The position numbers and the translations under genes were made by a program. From Urechis unicinctus (lineage: Eukaryota; Annelida; Polychaeta; Xenopneusta; Urechidae), in NCBI GenBank assembly GCA_034190875.2, contig CM067343.1, positions 64,468,476-64,532,475 of the forward strand: 64,000 bases of DNA, in the 5' to 3' direction. Under the pieces are notes generated by a model that was not told the origin of the DNA, did no database searches, and saw only the letters and a list, made by a program, of their open reading frames with translations. Within the stretch, counting starts at the first letter, position 1. Each line of letters opens with the position of its first letter. Positions 17,518-44,300 of this stretch are shown here, piece by piece.

Positions 17518-17681
17518 CTCGACTTAAGGACGAGTGATGACGACCAGCTGCATGGTAGTGGCAGGGCCATGGAAAAAAGCGTCTGAGGGCATCACCATAC
17601 AGATCACAAAAAAAGCAGAGGCAGTCGGTGCATTGAACGTCTATATGTATATTGTTATGGATGCACAGTTTAACATTAAAA

Positions 17682-18302
17682 ATGGCAGGTTCGGCAGCGC
17701 AGTCTACTAAGTTTACATTTGCAGATGGTCCCAGTTGTGCTATTATTTGTGGGCAGACAGGGTGCGGGAAAACCGTATTCATCCTCGACCTACTACAAGG
17801 GCTCTTCATCGGCGCCTTCGAACATATTGTAATCCTCTGCCCTACCATAAGTTTTAACGAGGCCTTTCAGTTGCGGTCATGGGTGTGGGATGATACAGAG
17901 GTGTACGCGGTTGAAACGAGGGAGCGGCTCCATGACCATTTGCGGGCTTTCTACCATTGTTTTAAGGGCGAGCCCACCCTGTACATTATTGATGACTGTT
18001 CGGCAACAAAGGCCTTAAACAAGAAGAAAGACATGTTATCCGAACTGGCCTTTAGTGGCCGCCATGCCCGGCAAAGTGTCTGGGTCCTCACCCAATAGTA
18101 CAACTCTGTGCTGAAGGACCTTTGTGAGCTGACTCGCTGGATGGTGCTCTTTTACACCAAGGACTCGTTTGAAGACGCCTTACGAGAGAATGATGTGATC
18201 CCAACAAGAGAGGAACGTGCCGCAGTACGCCAGCTACTAGCAAAGACCAAGCACGCAAAACAGCTGCTGAAGACTGATCAACCTACTACATATGCCGATT
18301 GA
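17682..18302 (+). pseudogene. Polinton genome-packaging ATPase (A32/FtsK-HerA type), one internal stop
   Basis: The protein begins MAGSAAQSTKFTF. Walker A is GQTGCGKT (residues about 23-30) and Walker B is LYIIDDC, followed by a sensor-like block ending VWVLTQ. A TAG at 18096-18098 follows that glutamine, and the frame continues to 18302 (YNSVLKDLCELTRWMVLFYT). The family powers DNA packaging into the capsid. It follows the capsid gene on the same strand, the usual Polinton arrangement. Apart from the one stop codon the gene is complete. Confidence 0.85.
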
Positions 18303-19202: not shown

Positions 19203-20045
19203 TCCATTGAAACGGCTCTGCACCGGTTGCCAAGGACCCACAGCGACCATCGAAATATAATATTCAGTGGCTTTTGGATCTGCTGAAAGGTAAAGGTGTA
19301 GAATATCCAACACCCATGCCGCATATTGAACCTAGCCTTGAACATCTTTGGCTGGGATGGGAAGGCCATCATTGTTCACTGCACGAGTAAGCACTCTGGT
19401 ACATGCATAAACCTCATGTTGGTTGAGGAGGACGGCAGGTTTCATTACACGCAGATCAAATATCTGAACCGCTTGCTCTATGATCAGAGTAAGCATAACG
19501 AGCGCAAGTTCTTCTGCACATTAGGATGAATACAGATATGCGCAAGGCCGCCACCAGCGACTTTGAGAAGGATCTCTATAAACTTATGAACAACTCCGTC
19601 TTTGGTAAATGATGGAGAGTTGACGTTAAGATTGTGCGCTCTTTGGAAAAAGAAAAAATACGTAGGCTTGTGGCCGGCCCCGCCTATGCTCGACAAAAAG
19701 TCCTTCCCATGCAAGAAGGTGCTAGGGAAAATGAAGGATGAGTGTGCTGGTGTGGCTATTAAAGAGTATGTTGGCCTACGCCCAAAGATGTACTCGATCT
19801 TGATGTCGAGCCAGGATGAGATTAAAAGGGCAAAGGGCGTGAAGAAGGTGGTGGTCAAGAAGCATCCACGACACGCTCAGTACGTGGAGTCACTATTCAC
19901 CCAAAAGCAATTCAGGCATGGGATGATCATGCTGCGCAGTGACTGCCACAAAATATACGGGCTTCACGTCAACAAGCGGTGGATAGCTGAGAATGGTGTA
20001 GACACCCTGGCCTATGGTCACAACAAACTAGCCCTTGGTGTGCAA
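19203..20045 (+). pseudogene. Polinton polymerase B with large internal deletion
   Basis: Fragments in order are PQRPSKYNIQWLLDLLKGKG near 19240, the N-terminal domain (19326-19520, ends at KFFC), then a jump to the motif B region KLMNNSVFGK with an immediate stop near 19610, and then the C-terminal domain 19720-20040 ([41 protein letters not shown]). The exonuclease and motif A regions are deleted. The gene lies on the plus strand, opposite to copy 1. Similarity to the element ends near 20045 just before a perfect hairpin. Confidence 0.8.
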
Positions 20046-20080
20046 AAATCTTGTATAAGTTGCCAAGGGGTCAGTATTAT

Positions 20081-20117
20081 ATATATGGGGGTACTGCGCC
20101 AGTACCCCCACTATATA
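20081..20117. repeat. Perfect hairpin at the broken end of the forward Polinton
   Basis: GGGGGTACTG and CAGTACCCCC are perfect reverse complements separated by CGC, with AT-rich arms (ATATAT / TATATA) outside. It lies about 40 bp after the last recognisable polymerase codon. Confidence 0.85.
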
Positions 20118-20221
20118 TACTACTACTTGGCCAAATGTATCAGGAAGTTAAAAAAGTTATTCAAAGTCGGCCAAAAATTGAACAAGTTAGGATGGATTTT
20201 AAAATTTTTTGACCAATGACT

Positions 20222-24900: not shown

Positions 24901-25045
24901 ATGATCTCCAAATCATTTCCTTCCATCGGGGAGGTCCATCATGCTTGTACTACCCGACAATCCACTGATGTATCGATGAGCACCGCATGTCCCCAAGGGC
25001 ACAACCGTCCCATGTGACTGTCCCAAGCGCAGGCAGCCACCACTC

Positions 25046-26545
25046 GTGCCGACCGAAGTACCTTTCCCAGCAACGCCTGTCAACAGGGAGAGATTACAAG
25101 CATTCCTTATCAACCACTACAGGGATAGCACGTTCAACACATGCAAACATCAACCTCTACCCATGATGACAGGCCCCCCAATCAGGCTCATGATCGACCC
25201 TGACGCCAAACCTGTAGCCCACCACACCCCGATCCCAGTCCCGCTTCACTGGCAAGACAACGTGAAAGCTGGACTCGACCAGGACGTGAGACTAGGCGTG
25301 ATTGAACCTGTCCCGATAGGGACACCAGTCACATGGTGTCATCGTATGGTGATCTGTCCTAAGAAAACGGGGAAGCCACGGCGTACGGTTGACTTCCAGC
25401 CCCTCAATGCTCACGCCACCCAAGAAACCCATCATACGCAATCCCCCTTCCACCAGGTCCGTGCCGTCCCACATGGGAAATGGAAAACCGTCTTCGACGC
25501 CTGGAATGGATACCACAGTGTTGCACTCCACCCTGACGACAGGCACCTCACCACATTCATAACACCATGGGGCCGCTACCGATACTGCACAGCACCCCAA
25601 GGCTACATTGCTTCTGGAGATGGATACTCCCGCCGTTATGATGAGATTGTATCAGACATCCCGCAGAAGACAAAGTGCATCGACGATGCCCTGCTGTGGG
25701 CCGATACGATCGAAAGCAGCTTTCACCAGGCCGCACATTGGCTGGACATCTGTGGCAGAAACGGAATCACTCTGAACACTGACAAGTTTGTGTTCTGCCA
25801 AGAGGAAGTGGAGTTCGCTGGCTTCACAGTGACTATGGACAATGTGCGCCCTTGCTCGAAGTACCTGAGAGCCATAAAGGACTTCCCAACGCCTCGCAAC
25901 CTCACTGACATTCGATCTTGGTTCGGTCTTGTAAACCAGGTGTCTTATGCCTTCAGCATGGCTGACCGCATGCTGCCCTTCCGCCAGCTCCTCAAGCCAG
26001 ATAACACCTTCACCTGGAACACAAGCCTCGAGGAGGCCTTCCAGGAATCGAAGGACGTGATCACGAAGGAGATCGAGACTGGGGTGAAAATCTTCGACAA
26101 AACCGTACCGACCTGCATCGCCACCGACTGGTCAAAGGATGGAATCGGCTTCTGGATGTTCCAAAAACACTGCAAATGCCTGGGCATGACCCCATTCTGT
26201 TGCCAGGAAGGATGGAAGATCACGCTGGTGGGAAGCCGCTTCACTCACTCAGCCGAATCCAGATACGCCCCGATCGAGGGGGAGGCCCTTGCAGTGGCGG
26301 ATGCCCTCGACAAAGCCAGATTCTTCGCCCTTGGTTGTACGGACTTTATCGTGACAGTCGACCACAAGCCACTATTCAAGATCCTCGGAGACCGCTCACT
26401 TGAGGCGATATCCGACGGCCGTCTCAGGAACCTCAAAGAGAGAACCCTCCGATACAGGTTTAGAATGGTCCACATTCCCGGCGTTCGGAACAGAGTGGCC
26501 GATGCAGTTTCCCGCAACCCATCTGGTGAAAAGAAACGTTTTTGA
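25046..26545 (+). CDS. Reverse transcriptase-RNase H of a Ty3/Gypsy element
   Basis: This 499-codon frame is open. RT spans about residues 80-265: motif A VFDAWNGY (149-156) and the catalytic box CIDDALLW (211-218), where YxDD is replaced by CIDD. RNase H follows with Asp361 (CIATDWSKDG), Glu at about 411-413 (RYAPIEGEA), Asp439 (VTVDHKP) and Asp486 (RNRVADAVSR). The enzyme copies element RNA to DNA in cytoplasmic particles. The frame overlaps the start of the integrase reading, which continues in another frame. Confidence 0.88.
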   Translation: MPTEVPFPATPVNRERLQAFLINHYRDSTFNTCKHQPLPMMTGPPIRLMIDPDAKPVAHHTPIPVPLHWQDNVKAGLDQDVRLGVIEPVPIGTPVTWCHRMVICPKKTGKPRRTVDFQPLNAHATQETHHTQSPFHQVRAVPHGKWKTVFDAWNGYHSVALHPDDRHLTTFITPWGRYRYCTAPQGYIASGDGYSRRYDEIVSDIPQKTKCIDDALLWADTIESSFHQAAHWLDICGRNGITLNTDKFVFCQEEVEFAGFTVTMDNVRPCSKYLRAIKDFPTPRNLTDIRSWFGLVNQVSYAFSMADRMLPFRQLLKPDNTFTWNTSLEEAFQESKDVITKEIETGVKIFDKTVPTCIATDWSKDGIGFWMFQKHCKCLGMTPFCCQEGWKITLVGSRFTHSAESRYAPIEGEALAVADALDKARFFALGCTDFIVTVDHKPLFKILGDRSLEAISDGRLRNLKERTLRYRFRMVHIPGVRNRVADAVSRNPSGEKKRF

Positions 26546-34145: not shown

Positions 34146-34231
34146 AGCGCAATTTTGAGAAGACTGAAGTATATTATGGGCGATAATAACATCAGCGTTT
34201 CTTTTACAGCGTCACGGTACCCTGGGACAAC

Positions 34232-35305
34232 ATGACGGTACCAGCTTATGAGACCACGGAGGGCGAAGTCGCACGGCCACGTGTATATATGTTCCCGGAA
34301 GCGAAAGCAGCGCTCTTCATTGACCGATATGGCGGCGGTTTTAACCAAGTCATGGGGATCGCGGGAAATATACTCGCTATCAAATTGTTACGTCGTCCAC
34401 GAATGCGCGCCAGTGTCACCAGCATGTACATGCAGATATTGGCATGCTCTGATATCAGCTACGTCACTATTGGTTTAGCCGGGAGACATTGGGCAAGGGC
34501 ACTTGGTTCAGATTTAGCTTCCTTGGACAAAATATACTGCAAAATATGGATTTATCTTATCAGAGTTATCGGAAGTTTTTCTAACTGGACCCTGGCATGT
34601 ATGTCAGCTGAGCGGTGTATTGCTATAATGTTTCCTCTTAGAGCGCGCTCTATCTTAAACCGTCGTTCTAGTGTGATTGCCTTGGTGTCCATACTTATCA
34701 TTTGCATAGTTTATTTCATTCACCTTTTCGACACTTTTAGTATTTATAACGACATATGCCGCATTATCAAAACCGGCTACCCCCCGGAAATCCGATCTTG
34801 GGTCGATTTCTTCCTGGAGACAGCATCGACATTTTCGACAATCGCCACTTGTAATTGCATTATTATTTCCAAGTTGATAAAAGCTGCCGTCAGGCGACAG
34901 GACCTTGCTCAAGGTCAGAAAGAAGATGCTAACAACATGACGTCATTGGTAGCCATGTTGGTCTCCGTCAGCATAGCGTTCATGATTCTTAAGATTCCCT
35001 TCCATATTTTTCTGATTATGGGTAACAATGTGATAGCCATTTACTATTTCCCGGACCGGGAGCAAGCCGTCGACCGTCTCATGCTCGCCATTACACTTTG
35101 GCTCACCTACTTCAATCACTGCGTCAATTTCTTTCTCTACGTCATTAGTGGACGTGAATTTCGCAATGAGTTAAAAGCCATGTTCGGTGAGATTCGTGAG
35201 AGATTTGGCTGTTGTGATGGTCGTGAGAAGAAAGAAGCTCACCAGCATGTGTCTACTGTAACCAGTTATGCCAGTACGAGAACCGTGTCTGCTGTTGTCC
35301 CGTGA
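34232..35305 (+). CDS. Class A (rhodopsin-like) G-protein-coupled receptor, peptide-receptor type
   Basis: A single open exon of 357 codons. A splice acceptor (TTTCTTTTACAG) ends at 34209, so the 5' leader is spliced and all coding lies in one exon. TM1 residues about 36-53 (GIAGNILAI, the GN motif), TM2 with LACSD (70-74), Cys103 before TM3, ERC (127-129) in place of DRY, Cys176 in loop 2, TM5 190-212, TM6 236-262, and TM7 with HCVNFFLY (296-303) in place of NPxxY, then a basic helix 8 (GREFRNELK). The TM7 and helix 8 pattern is typical of invertebrate neuropeptide (FMRFamide-like) receptors. Ligand unknown. The N-terminus is short and TM1 looks short. Confidence 0.85.
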   Translation: MTVPAYETTEGEVARPRVYMFPEAKAALFIDRYGGGFNQVMGIAGNILAIKLLRRPRMRASVTSMYMQILACSDISYVTIGLAGRHWARALGSDLASLDKIYCKIWIYLIRVIGSFSNWTLACMSAERCIAIMFPLRARSILNRRSSVIALVSILIICIVYFIHLFDTFSIYNDICRIIKTGYPPEIRSWVDFFLETASTFSTIATCNCIIISKLIKAAVRRQDLAQGQKEDANNMTSLVAMLVSVSIAFMILKIPFHIFLIMGNNVIAIYYFPDREQAVDRLMLAITLWLTYFNHCVNFFLYVISGREFRNELKAMFGEIRERFGCCDGREKKEAHQHVSTVTSYASTRTVSAVVP

Positions 35306-35994: not shown

Positions 35995-37452
35995 ACATGT
36001 TATACTCAGGTGTAGGCTGTACTGATACAGAAGACATGTTATAATCAGGTGTAGGCTGTACTGATACAGAAGACATGTTATACATGTAGGCTATACTGAT
36101 ACAGGTGTAGGCTGTACTGATACAAGACATGTTATACTCAGGTGTAGGCTGTACTGATACAGAAGACATGTTATACTCAGGTGTAGGCTGTACTGATACA
36201 GAAGACATGTTATACTCAGGTGTAGGCTGTACTGATACAGAAGACATGTTATACTCAGGTGTAGGCTGTACTGATACAGAAGACATGTTATACCCAGGTG
36301 TAGGCTGTACTGATATAGAAGACATGCTATACCCAGGTGTAGGCTGTACTGATATAGAAGACATGCTATACCCAGGTGTAGGCTGTACTGATATAGAAGA
36401 CATGCTATACCCAGGTGTAGGCTGTACTGATAAGACATGCTATACCCAGAAGGCTGTACATGCTATATGCTATACCCAGTGTAGGCTGTACTGATACAGA
36501 AGACATGCTATACCCAGGTGTAGGCTGTACTGATATAGAAGACATGCTATACCCAGGTGTAGGCTGTACTGATATAGAAGACATGCTATACCCAGGTGTA
36601 GGCTGTACTGATACAGAAGACATGCTATACCCAGGTGTAGGCTGTACTGATACAGAAGACATGCTATATACCCAGGTGTAGGCTGTACTGATACAGAAGA
36701 CATGCTATACCCAGGTGTAGGCTGTACTGATACAGAAGACATGCTAGGCTGTACTGATACAGAAGACATGTTATACCACAGGTGTAGGTGTAGGCTGTAC
36801 TGATACAGAAGACATGCTATACCCAGGTGTAGACTGATACAGAAGACATGCTATACCCAGGTGTAGGCATGCAGAAGGCATGTACTGATATACCCAGGTG
36901 TAGGCTGTACTGATACAGAAGACATGTACCCAGGTGTAGGCTGTACTGATACAGAAGACATGATACCCAGGTGTAGGCTACTGATACAGAAGACATGCTA
37001 TACCCAGGTGTAGGCTGTACTGATACAGAAGACATGTTATACCCAGTGTGTTGTACTGATACAGAAGACATGCACCCAAGTGTAGGCTGTACTGATACAG
37101 AAGACATGTTATACTCAGGTGTAGGCTGTACTGATACAGAAGACATGTTATACTCAGGTGTAGGCTGTACTGATACAGAAGACATGTTATACTCAGGTGT
37201 AGGCTGTACTGATACAGAAGACATGTTATACCCAGGTGTAGGCTGTACTGATACAGAATACATGTTAAACCCAAGTGTAGGCTGTACTGATACAGAAGAC
37301 ATGCTGTACCCAGGTGTAGGCTGTACTGATACAGAAGACATGTTATACTCAGGTGTAGGCTGTACTGATACAGAAGAGATGTTAAACCCAAGTGTAGGCT
37401 GTACTGATACAAAATACGTGTTATACTCAAGTGTAGGCTGTACTGATAGAAA
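35995..37452. repeat. 39-bp minisatellite, about 37 copies
   Basis: The unit is ACATGTTATACTCAGGTGTA plus GGCTGTACTGATACAGAAG. Several sub-variants occur in blocks: TTATACTC, CTATACCC, GATACAG or GATATAG, and a few shortened units between 36400 and 37080. Because 39 is a multiple of three, open frames exist on both strands (MLYSGVGCTDTED forward, MSSVSVQPTPEYN reverse). No start context, splice sites or conserved neighbours support coding. Confidence 0.92.
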
Positions 37453-37455
37453 TTA

Positions 37456-38838: not shown

Positions 38839-41800
38839 ATGGCCTCCGCAGTTTTTGACCACGACTTAGTGGCTGAGAGAGAGGGCAGCACTAACTACGC
38901 CCGCCTGGCTTGCCTAATTATTCAAGAAGGAACTCGCCAAATCCGTGTTAACTGTATGAATAAAATCATCGATAACTTGTCATTAACTCAAATACTGGCG
39001 GTCAAGAAAAGTGAGATGCAAGCGCTGAAAAGGAAAAAAGTCATCCATGATTTTCAGCTTGACATTCTGTACCCGCAAGAAAGTCTCGAGCCTCGCGTGG
39101 AGGATATTGATATGACTTTGTGGATGTTGGTGATAAGATATATCACAAAGGGGAAAAACCAAATCAATTGGACACGACCCCCCAAAGAGAATGATACTCG
39201 ATGGCAGCATCAGGCATTACGTCTTAGAGAAGTGAGAAACCGATTGTTTCATCTGCCTGAGCTCTCGCTGGCAGAATTCAGAGAATTGTGGGATATCGCC
39301 ACGGGGGTATTAAGTGCATTGGGAACCCCTAATGAAATCATCAAGGAATACTACACAAAAGATCTCGATCCGTTAAATACCAAGACGTACACATTGCAGC
39401 TACGCGAGCAAGTGTTCGAGGAAAAGTATGGGTTGATGATGAGCGATGCCCAGCGCCAGAAACAACTGAAAATCATGATTCCTTTGGTCATCTGTGTGGC
39501 ATTGTTGATCAGCGTTGCTTTTGTCGTTCCGTTGGTGATATACCTACGCGGCGGTGTATCGTGCAGCAAGGCCATACAGGCGATCCAGACAGGTAACATT
39601 CCACAAGCTATCTTCCTCTTGACTGATAATTACAGTGCTGCTCCGTTGCGATTGATTGCCGTGAATACATCACTGTAAGTCATATGTGACTGTTGTCATG
39701 TTGGTTAATTATTATATGAAATTGTACTAATTTACCCATAACCTTTATATATGTATCCTGACCTTGACTTCGATCCATATGTACCGGATTGACTGTTGGC
39801 TGATTGCAATGTTTGCCTAAGTTTTGCATGCAATCAGTAGATTAGGTGGATTTGGTCAATATGATATTTTATATTTGGTAAACATCCAAAGACTCGTATG
39901 TTTCATTTAAAAAGCTTATATTAAATATTGAATTATAGATCTTGGATGGTTACAATTTCTTCCTCGTGCTGGATGGGGTGCTGAAATGCCGAAGCATCCG
40001 TTGGAGGATCTGCACACTCCCGTGGACAATGTCGTTATAACGCACACAGCGATGATAACCCAGTGTAATGATATTGAAACCTGTTGCGGGGATGTGAAGC
40101 AGGTTCAGCATTACCACATGCACGAGCGAGACCCGCGTAAGTCCCTTGGAATCATTGGGTCCACGTTTTTTGGTAGGTTGCTGCTTGTTGTGAACTTATT
40201 CTGTGATGATTTTCAGCATTTGATGATATTGGCTATGACTTTCTTGTTGGTGGAGACGGAGTAATTTATGAGGGACGTGGCTGGAATAAAGTTAGTGCCG
40301 CCATTCCTGGGTGAGTGGATCGGTGTGTTTCCTATTCCTGGGTGAGTGGATCGGTGTGTTTCTTTGCTGTGTTTGTGTGTTAAACGATGATTTAACACAC
40401 ATTTAAATAACAAGAAGTGCTATGTGTGAGCGGTCAGACGTGAAGGTTTGACGAAATATTAACTTACACCCTGCATCATTCCCATTTGATGTTGACGATC
40501 ACACCCCACGTGGAGCTGTTCGATCAAAGGTCGCGAGGATTGGTCAGGCTTATCGTCAACAACTAAAGGGACTGGTGCAGGCCAGAATAGGCGCCAGACA
40601 TGTCGTGCTGATAATTTAGTTGGGGGAGGGGGCTGAATGGGATAAAAAACGATATTATAACACAACTGACTTTTATTGACTGCAACGAGCCTATCGTAGA
40701 GCAGATTTTGATTGCGCGTTACTTAATCAACCTATCAGGCGCACCTGATTTAATTCAACCAACGGGGGCCAGTCCGCTTAGACAGGGTTTTCAATTTTTG
40801 CTCCCTGTCACTTTTGTTGTTTTCTAAGGTGATCCCAACAGGGCTACGCGTCTCATAAGCAAATACAGGGTTGTAAGGGGGGTCGAGTCCGGCCCCCAAC
40901 GGACCCGACAACGGTAAATTAACGTGACCATAGGCTGAGGTGTCCACGCCATTCGCGGCTATCCACCTCTTTTTTTGGTCAAAAGAGGAGAGCTGTTGAT
41001 GTGTATAGCTCGTGGACTGCATCTTACCACTAACAAGCTGCTCATTGAACAAGGTCATCGTTTTAAGTCACTAACAACATCTCTCAGCTCGATCTCCAAA
41101 TCTATTTTCTCTTCTCACAGATAATCTACTTCTTTTACACAACCGTCAAGCCCAGCAATACACCCTTCGGTGTTTGTTTCTAAGCCTCGTTTATTTAATA
41201 GGCCAGGTATATACAGCGCGTTAAAGTCCGCGCAATGATATCATTCAGTCCGCTGGTCGGTGTAGAAGCAGGTGCACCCGTGTTTTTCCTGATGCCTTCT
41301 AATGCATCGTCTTTCCCACGTGGGATCAATGCGTTTTTTCATCGATGTTTGACGTACTTTTTATTAGCAACATCCTTTCCAGTTCCAAGGCTGCACTGCA
41401 AGATCTCTAAGAGCACCTAGCCTTTGTCCACGAGTACAATGACCTGCGCATGCGCCACGCGAGCCAGTCCCATGACCATGCAAGCCAGTTCCCAGGCCAC
41501 GTAAGACAAGTTCAAGAAGACCAAGTGGGCTGTTAAATCTGCAAGTGTGGGTGATAAGCGTTCCTGCGGGTCACCCGCTCAGCAGGGACACTCTGATATT
41601 CTTAAAGAGACTGTTCAGCCACATATAAGGCAATCAGGGATCATTTCGTTATTACATTACCACGATTAACGCAGACGTAAGTAATGACATCTTCTTATTT
41701 GTGCCGCCGAGTTTACATGATGGAAGTTATGTTGATAAGTTTTTAACATTATTATTTGACTGGAAATATTCATGATATACTGTGGAGATCTGTTTTATTC

Positions 41801-44048
41801 AGTTATGTCGTTCCATCGATAACGGTGCCTCCCTAAAACCATGAACTACACGAATGTTAGCTGTAAATCATAACGCGCTCTGAATTTACCTCGCTAACGA
41901 TGTGTATTCTTCCGCTTTAGTTACATAATGTAGATTTCATTAAATCTTCACTCATTCAAGTTGTGGGCATAATTGTGCACACATTAGACCGACAAGCAGG
42001 AAGGATAATGTCCGACAACATAAATGGTAACAGCCGAAGTAAGGATCTTTTTTCTGAGACCACAGCGCCGCGTAGCGACTGAAAGTCTGAAAATGTAACA
42101 TTTTTGGTTTCCAAGGTGCTGTTACCAAGCAGCTTGCTAGGCAACCACTTTCCTTATATGGGGCTGAACAGTCTCTTTAAGAGGCGTGGGATAAGCGAGA
42201 GACCCAAGCTGGTGCCTAGAGACAGCGGCCCACGCTTATCGCTGGGGATTACCTACCGACCGATTATTAACAACTTTAACCGCGGTGTTAATAATTGACG
42301 GTTCTGTTTTATGTCATCGCCATTATTAGAAAGATAAGATGATATATTTTAGGCCTGAGAGGTATGCGCCGCTGAATAGCAAAGGTGTTTCGCTTGAGTT
42401 GCTAACCAACTACGACAAACACCTGTTCATTGAGAAGGGCCTACGCACTGCCACGCTGAAGCCAATAACCCATACGTGGAGGGCTTCGATATGGATAAAC
42501 CTGCGAGCTTCATCCAGTACCTTGACGCTAACAACCTGTATTGCTGGGCGATGTGTCAGCCCCTACCTACTGGGGCGATTGATAGGGTGGACCGGCCAGG
42601 GCAGCTCGCTGCCCTGCAGATACACGACCATCTTGACGATGCCACAGACATGCAGGCGGACCTCACCCTCTCAGACATCAGCAACTACTCACCTGATCAC
42701 ACACTCCACTCCAGTGCCAATAAGAATATCTTTGGTAAAATGAAGGTTGGGTGCGCCGGTGTGCCTATCAAGGAGTATGTGGGCCTGCGCCCAAAGATGT
42801 ACTCTATATCCTGATGTCTGACGCGGGCGAGATTAAAAAGGCAAAGAGAGTGAAGAAGGTTGTGGTGAAGAAGGTTGTGGTGAAGAAGCACCTACACCAC
42901 GCGCAATACATGGAGTCTCTGTTCACACAGAAGCAGTTCCACCATGGGATGAACATGATACGCAGTGAAGGTCACAAGATATATGGACTATACGTCAACA
43001 AGATGACACTCTCCCCGTTTGACTCAAAGCGGTGGATAGCCACGAACGACGTAGACACCTTATGGTCACGTTAATTTACCACTGAGAAGTCGGGCCCGTT
43101 GTAATTGCTTAAGAGCCGCGTAACCCTGTTGTTTTAGAAAACAACAAAAGTGACAGGCGGCAAAAATCGAAAATCGTGTTTGAGCGGAACTGGCCCCCGT
43201 TGGTTAAATCAAGTAAGGTGTGCCAGAACAGCTATTTATATACTACTAGGACACAGATTTTAATTATACACGACTTATTCCGCCAACCAGATAGCAGACT
43301 TCAATTGCACTTAATCAACCAATGAGTGTGCTTTATTTTTCTGCATGTAACTTATCAACTCAGAGGACAATTTTGACTGAGGACAGCATGCCTGAGTATC
43401 TGCACTTGTCTTAATGCTTGTGCGCCTAGATATCATCGTCGAGAATTGTACAATTAAAATGAATGACGACACAGGCAGTTGATAGCAAGACAATAATGAT
43501 TATACATAGCAAAATATTACTCCAGAGGAACAATCCATTCCTTCGTTTACTTACATGTCCGTGGTATCATGTAGCTGACTTTGAATGTGATGGGTATTCA
43601 GTGTGTGTGAGTTTAATACACATCAAACGCTTGCACACTCTATAGCAATTATTATCTAGAAAATCGCTTTTCATTAAATGACATATCACTGATCAAAGTT
43701 GACATTGGCAGGACACCCACGAACTTTGTCTTGTTTCCTTGGGCACCAACCACCGTGCGGTATTGGGTGGCGATCGTTGTGAATCATTTTAAAGCTAATG
43801 TTAATTCTGATGATCTACAACGCAGGTGGAACAAGAAGATGATTAGCCTGGCCTTCATAGGGAACTTTATGTACTACACACCACCCATAGTGGCAACCCA
43901 AGCAGCCCAGGTGTTTATACACTATATGTTGGGCAGCCATAAAGTATCCAGCAACTATTCTATATATGCTCATTGCCAGCTCAACCCCAAATACCCTGAT
44001 AGTCCGGGAGAAATGCTCGTCAAGCTGATGAGAAAGTGGGACGGATTT
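38839..44048 (+). CDS. HEPN-transmembrane-PGRP receptor (DZIP3-like HEPN fused to a peptidoglycan recognition domain)
   Basis: Exons 38839-39592, 39939-40136, 40217-40310 and 43826-44048 have consistent phases (1, 1, 2, 0). Residues about 20-185 form a DZIP3-type HEPN domain: [28 protein letters not shown], and RNRLFH (133-138), an Rx4H motif. Residues 213-236 are a membrane helix ([19 protein letters not shown]) with basic residues before it, giving a type II topology with the HEPN domain in the cytosol. A short cysteine-bearing stalk follows, then a PGRP fold: [60 protein letters not shown] and [19 protein letters not shown]. The two zinc-ligand histidines remain, but the usual Cys of the CPG motif is Ser (DSPGE), so amidase activity is unlikely. 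A donor at 39675 is an alternative end of exon 1 but does not match the next phase. The 3' end may extend past the donor at 44049, or read through to a stop at 44195. Confidence 0.82.
40303..40364. repeat. 31-bp tandem duplication spanning a splice donor
   Basis: ATTCCTGGGTGAGTGGATCG and its flank occur twice in tandem, so the donor of PGRP exon 3 (at 40311) is copied at 40342. Use of the second donor would add 31 nt and break the frame into exon 4. Confidence 0.85.
41606..42176. mobile_element. TTAA-flanked MITE nested in the Polinton remnant
   Basis: Terminal inverted repeats AGAGACTGTTCAGCC and GGCTGAACAGTCTCT (extending to about 28 bp with CATATAAGG) are flanked on both sides by TTAA (41602-41605 and 42177-42180). 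TTAA target duplication is the piggyBac hallmark, so it may be a piggyBac-dependent MITE. No transposase inside. Confidence 0.75.
42339..43074 (+). pseudogene. Polinton polymerase B fragments
   Basis: Fragments in three frames include [30 protein letters not shown] (the motif A region, at 42476-42814), [11 protein letters not shown], and the C-terminal [19 protein letters not shown] with [11 protein letters not shown] (42751-43074). Motifs B and C are deleted. A lysine/valine-rich patch (VKKVVVKK) is locally duplicated. It is a third, independent polymerase relic in this window. Confidence 0.78.
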
Positions 44049-44300
44049 GTAAGTTTCGTTTACTTTAAGGAACATATGGGGAGCAAAATAACGTATGAAT
44101 TCATACTTGTCCTTAATGGCTTCGTTATAATTTTGTTATGTTGTAAACAGAATGATGCGAACTTGACCAACTGCGATGGAGTTACTAGGCGATGAAACCT
44201 TAATTTGTAGCAGAATCACATATAGCTTTAAAAGCTGATGCTCAGCAAACTCGCCATTGCTGTATTTGCTGGGAACAAACCGCGTGCTGTTGTTGATGTA

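Follow-up and report, generated by a model that had tools for sequence, protein, structure and literature searches.

A 64,000-nucleotide stretch of the genome of the annelid Urechis unicinctus (assembly GCA_034190875.2, contig CM067343.1, positions 64,468,476 to 64,532,475 of the forward strand; hereafter the window) carries on its forward strand, at 38839..44048, a predicted gene that joins a DZIP3-type HEPN domain to a single membrane helix and a PGRP domain. Profile searches, splice models and paralogues make us highly confident that this gene belongs to a real and duplicated family of predicted HEPN-membrane-PGRP receptors. As a whole, our reading is that ligand-clustered ectodomains would activate a cytosolic HEPN RNase in these receptors, to which we assign a probability of roughly 0.55.

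A duplicated receptor gene family

In the 1.19-Gb genome, whose contigs are labelled C1, C2 and so on and in which the window lies on C2, a six-frame search with the window model located 20 copies of the HEPN exon, the window included, spread over five contigs. Twelve of these lie on one strand within 23.00-23.15 Mb of C1 and five on C12, with single loci on C2 (the window), C3 and C4. In 18 of these 20 cases, PGRP exons 2, 3 and 4 are all present downstream in the same orientation; the exceptions are L018, which has exons 2 and 3 but not 4, and L025, which has none of the three. Two PGRP remnants lack an accompanying HEPN exon, one consisting of exons 3 and 4 (in L016) and the other of exon 4 (in L021). 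Seven loci are open through all four exons, namely the window, three on C1 (L015, L016 and L020) and three on C12 (L024, L026 and L027), and both HEPN_DZIP3 and Amidase_2 are found by Pfam in every one of the seven intact products, all of which also contain the motif RNRLFH. Identity to the window copy amounts to 65-68% for the intact C1 copies and 43-44% for those on C12. The possibility that the window copy is a pseudogene was rejected on account of its open frame and its low ratio of nonsynonymous to synonymous substitution rates (dN/dS) against the C1 copies.

HEPN_DZIP3 (PF18738) matches at least 23 stretches of the genome, of which 20 fall in 19 receptor loci, one at C12:25.24 Mb and two at C4:40.81 Mb, while the receptor copy at C4:26.2 Mb is not among them. 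Of the 21 loci matching this profile, 19 belong to the receptor family, both counts being lower bounds. At the C4:40.81 Mb locus (L046, 3851-8190), the match is split over two frames, the second of which stays open for 1321 residues and contains nothing else that Pfam scores above the cut-off. By eye, this frame may resemble SAMD9-like proteins.

Gene structure and domain order

The spliced window gene consists of four exons with GT/AG borders and intron phases of 1, 1 and 2, and it is open over 423 codons, in agreement with the four phase-consistent exons of the original prediction. Exon 1 (38839..39592; 251 codons plus one base), supported by its open frame and a Pfam match, encodes the predicted cytosolic HEPN region, the membrane helix and the start of a stalk. 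It is followed by intron 1 (39593..39938, phase 1), the donor and acceptor places of which match in the paralogues. Splice modeling, Pfam and paralogue matches place the first part of the PGRP domain in exon 2 (39939..40136) and its core in exon 3 (40217..40310), whereas the end of the domain lies beyond intron 3 (40311..43825, phase 2, GT/AG) in exon 4 (43826..44048), in which the splice model and alignment reveal the sequon NYS and an SPG replacing CPG. Intron 3 also holds transposon-like debris at about 42434-43071, which by eye resembles the window open reading frame at 19590-20216. Directly after exon 4, the sequence reads as a donor-like site (GTAAGT, 44049..44054), and GTGAGT, GTAAGT or GTACGT occurs at the end of exon 4 or three bases past it in 17 of 18 loci, with none seen there in L017. 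Beyond exon 4, no further exon block was detected that the window copy shares with either the C1 or the C12 group. The donor-like site suggests that the coding sequence may continue past 44048.

The splice junctions recur among the 17 other loci with PGRP exons. Junction 1 is in phase 1 in 13 of these, in phase 0 in two and without a solution in two; junction 2 is in phase 1 in 16 and without a solution in one; and junction 3 is in phase 2 in all 17. These counts derive from splice matrices together with similarity to the window protein, a procedure that leans towards homologous sites, and one of the 13 phase-1 loci (L009) has a poor acceptor and an exon 3 match split between frames. A coding linker in place of intron 1 was rejected, as stops are present in all nine copies read and indels of 1 and 10 bases separate the window copy from the C3 copy. 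We consider a single spliced HEPN-PGRP transcript to be a strong inference from these sequences.

For the HEPN half, the window product matches HEPN_DZIP3 at residues 48-180 (38980..39378; E 3.4e-17) with 63 bits against a curated cut-off of 27. This match is narrower than residues 20-185, the range that had been predicted for the domain. The same profile is found at E<=0.01 in all seven spliced intact products and at E<=0.001 in all ten HEPN exons searched. Two additional weak Pfam names for the window product are both under their own cut-offs, and neither a kinase nor a KEN domain is found in it at E<=1. Likewise, the HEPN profile had no match in the PDB at E<=1, NCBIfam gave none, and no relative of the exon 1 protein was found among the viral contigs searched. 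Within the domain, RNRLFH (residues 133-138, 39235..39252) reads as a putative Rx4H RNase motif (R133...H138), and it too had been part of the prediction. It is unchanged in all ten aligned HEPN exons and was found by pattern in 17 of the 20 loci; together with L021 (RNRLFH) and L022 (RNDLFH), Rx4H is kept in 19 of the 20, whereas it was not seen at L018. Such retention is usual for HEPN_DZIP3, since a study on the diploid pearl oyster reports the motif in 194 of 202 HEPN_DZIP3 proteins (PMC9646362).

By hydropathy, a single membrane helix spans residues ~212-238 (39472..39552). It is the one strong hydrophobic stretch encoded by exons 1-4, and a second appears only when exon 4 is read past 44048. 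The N-terminus of the receptor products is not hydrophobic, and in all seven intact copies the net charge of the helix flanks is more positive on the N side, from which we tentatively infer an N-in/C-out (type II) single-pass orientation. Hydropathy, profile searches and paralogues are in accord with the single helix and the order of HEPN domain, helix and PGRP domain that had been claimed. The sequon NYS is likewise kept in all seven intact copies. Their ectodomains contain five cysteines in six cases and six in L024; because an odd number leaves one unpaired, a disulfide-linked dimer is possible.

The PGRP half matches Amidase_2 at residues 278-409 of the window product (50.9 bits, cut-off 26, E 2.6e-13), and among solved structures it comes closest to PGRP-LCx (E 1.6e-31), followed by PGRP-LF (E 1.5e-30). 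The PDB matches at E<=1e-3 comprise 28 distinct sequences, of which 25 are named PGRP, one is CG14704 and two are amidases, so that the predicted PGRP domain, like the HEPN domain, is upheld by its profile. Alignment to PGRP-LCx runs without a gap across the exon 3/4 junction and with a two-residue insertion at that of exons 2 and 3. The catalytic zinc set of PGRP amidases is His-Tyr-His-Cys. The cysteine position is occupied by serine in six of the seven intact copies and by asparagine in one, and the first histidine is lost in three, which are the three C12 copies. Because the catalytic cysteine is absent from all seven, the PGRP part is probably a binding domain and not a cleaving one. The genome has eight other PGRP loci that were compared (L028-L035); CPG occupies the cysteine place in the five where this exon was seen, and at the remaining three it was not. 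Their tblastn blocks break near the place of the receptors' exon 2/3 junction in most of these loci but run through that of exons 3 and 4, which suggests that the receptor PGRP may form a separate lineage.

Sequence constraint on the two halves

When the window copy is compared with the C1 copies, HEPN dN/dS is 0.14-0.15 at a synonymous divergence (dS) of ~1.6, while PGRP dN is 0.22-0.26 with saturated dS. Against the C12 copies, dS is saturated in HEPN and reaches 2.7-3.6 in PGRP. Against the C3 copy, PGRP dN/dS is 0.31, and there are no indels in the PGRP exons, two in exon 1 and several in intron 1. This pattern of constraint fits an old fusion that was duplicated as a unit.

Among more recent duplicates, the two halves can be compared directly. 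In three C12 pairs, dN/dS is 0.15-0.39 for HEPN and 0.75-1.03 for PGRP, whereas in three C1 pairs the corresponding values are 0.46-0.72 and 0.36-0.61. Fisher tests on replacement counts in the two halves gave p values of 0.003, 0.003 and 0.07 for the C12 pairs and no contrast for the C1 pairs (p 0.6-1.0), with the pairs in these tests not being independent of each other. At most, this hints at faster change of the PGRP half in recent C12 duplicates. Furthermore, dS between L015 and L016 is 0.023 in the HEPN exon versus 0.152 in the PGRP part, a pattern such as gene conversion would leave.

Proposed mechanism and alternative explanations

We propose that the family consists of type II single-pass receptors, each with a cytosolic N-terminal HEPN_DZIP3 domain, a signal-anchor helix, a short stalk and one presumably non-enzymatic PGRP domain outside the cell. 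The ectodomain would bind peptidoglycan or a related ligand, and binding would cluster the receptors, perhaps starting from a disulfide-linked dimer, such that the clustered HEPN domains could together make up a composite RNase site and cleave RNA in the cytosol. Activation of the HEPN part by ligand-driven clustering had already been conjectured in the original prediction. A conceivable parallel is IRE1, a sensor across the membrane that is coupled to a HEPN-type (KEN) RNase. PMC3710099 counts the KEN domain of IRE1 and RNase L among the HEPN domains and describes the motif histidine as indispensable to the nuclease activity of RNase L KEN, RloC and PrrC. This RNase mechanism is our leading one, at slightly better than even odds. 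A more far-reaching version is offered tentatively, at odds somewhat short of even: a surface receptor for the bacterial wall would itself be an RNase, its HEPN domain switched on by peptidoglycan-clustered PGRPs, yielding an immune output at the level of RNA that needs neither Imd nor NF-kB adaptors, while the ectodomains diversify and the nuclease half stays constant.

Several observations weigh against this proposal. Firstly, 13 of the 20 loci appear to show a frame break, a stop or a missing exon as read here. Secondly, HEPN constraint is weaker between the window and C3 copies (dN/dS 0.56), presumably because the C3 copy is frame-broken; this value covers the first 100 codons, the last 140 codons of exon 1 being unreliable in that alignment, where the rows slip by two codons at the start. 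Thirdly, the C12 group lacks the VGGDG loop in addition to the first catalytic histidine, and because of these two losses its ligand may not be peptidoglycan. Fourthly, a six-frame Amidase_2 search of the genome returned 13 stretches, none of them at receptor loci, since the split exons score under the threshold and only spliced models match. Lastly, no relative of the HEPN part emerged from the protein database, where the search covered only proteins that have short exact words in common with it.

The main rival to the RNase mechanism, which we consider unlikely yet deserving of serious attention, is that HEPN serves as a docking module. In that scenario, the ligand would recruit a soluble HEPN protein by HEPN-HEPN contact, the partner would signal, for example via CARD, and the receptor would cut no RNA. 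The C12:25.24 Mb locus (L049, 4222-5769) speaks for this, as a HEPN_DZIP3 frame (E 4.5e-32) is followed there by a CARD frame (E 7.9e-12), and by eye its HEPN domain reads R-T-D-L-A-S where the receptors have RNRLFH, with no motif histidine. In addition, PMC3710099 describes fusions of DZIP3-type HEPN to CARD, DEATH and NACHT elsewhere. However, the CARD frame, while in the same reading frame, lies two stops further on and has its own methionine just before the domain. The locus may encode a HEPN-CARD protein by splicing, or else two genes, and is a candidate receptor partner either way. The invariance of RNRLFH across the ten aligned exons also goes beyond what docking alone needs.

We regard it as quite improbable that these are decoy or tolerance receptors like PGRP-LF, which dampens signaling. 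Such a receptor would bind the ligand or other receptors and its cytosolic part would be incidental. This explanation would accommodate the rank of PGRP-LF as second-best solved match, the absence of the catalytic cysteine from all seven intact copies and the broken state of 13 of the 20 copies as read, but in the C12 pairs it is the HEPN half that is better conserved.

Scarcely credible, finally, is a pair of neighboring genes duplicated together, one HEPN-membrane and one PGRP: the HEPN frame of the window does extend beyond the donor, by 28 codons, before it meets a stop (39678), which would permit an unspliced HEPN-membrane product, but the two parts lie only 112 bases apart on C4 and 115-130 bases apart in three C12 copies, which leaves little room for separate genes, the stop after the donor shifts between copies (8 codons in L015, 4 in L024) while the donor itself keeps the corresponding position, and exon 2 of the window is directly preceded by a stop and has its first in-frame methionine inside the PGRP domain.

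Other features of the window

Elsewhere in the window, Pfam identifies Polinton- or virus-like remains at 391-1773 and 17637-18095, with DNA polymerase B (PF03175) and an A32-type ATPase (PF04665), and neighboring open reading frames appear related, by eye only. A retrotransposon frame that includes both reverse transcriptase and RNase H lies at 24980-26542, and a rhodopsin-type G protein-coupled receptor frame (7tm_1, E 2.4e-24) at 34190-35302. The sequence at 36111-37453 is a long repetitive tract, and each of its strands has repeat-like open frames.

Comparison with known systems

The HEPN-membrane-PGRP architecture appears to be an undescribed pairing of two known immune modules. As the original prediction had supposed, we did not find a HEPN-PGRP protein among the matches listed in the open-licence PubMed Central literature. 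In the protein database, again with only proteins that have short exact words in common with the query covered, the full model had two hits, the HEPN part none and a seven-row profile four, all of them proteins with a PGRP domain only.

The receptors most resemble insect PGRP-LC and PGRP-LF, which share a non-catalytic PGRP and supply the nearest solved chains. In both of these, the order is likewise cytosolic part, helix and PGRP domain. The cytosolic part of the receptors, however, is HEPN_DZIP3. A RHIM-like cytosolic motif is a feature of Imd signaling by PGRP-LC-type receptors, and a pattern search for the RHIM core ([IV]Q[IVL]G) found none in residues 1-211 of the seven intact copies. Profiles, the nearest chain and paralogues together favor the earlier view of a PGRP-LC-like order in which HEPN takes the place of the signaling part.

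With DZIP3/hRUL138-type HEPN proteins such as HEPN-NACHT and HEPN-CARD, the receptors have in common the Pfam HEPN_DZIP3 domain with Rx4H. These proteins have undergone lineage-specific expansion (PMC9646362, PMC8260672), and their tabulated fusion partners are TPR, Zn-ribbon, RING, Ankyrin, CARD, NACHT, DEATH and LRR, a list that names neither a membrane helix nor PGRP (PMC3710099). The same source mentions IRE1 and C6orf70 as single-pass membrane proteins with a HEPN-superfamily domain (PMC3710099). Unlike the receptors, both belong to the endoplasmic reticulum, carry KEN or DUF4209 HEPN domains rather than the DZIP3 type and are without PGRP.

Transmembrane PGRPs are said to exist in mollusks and brachiopods, and the source calls them only compatible with Imd activation (PMC9835746); a HEPN tail there is conceivable. 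The same text notes that Imd-pathway parts occur in spiralians, and that a nemertean survey found no PGRP fitting as their receptor (PMC9835746). With HEPN as its tail, a PGRP receptor would provide a different output. Should the HEPN half prove to be an active RNase, a surface sensor could act directly on RNA, and these proteins would be, to our knowledge, the first animal surface pattern receptors with a built-in nuclease.

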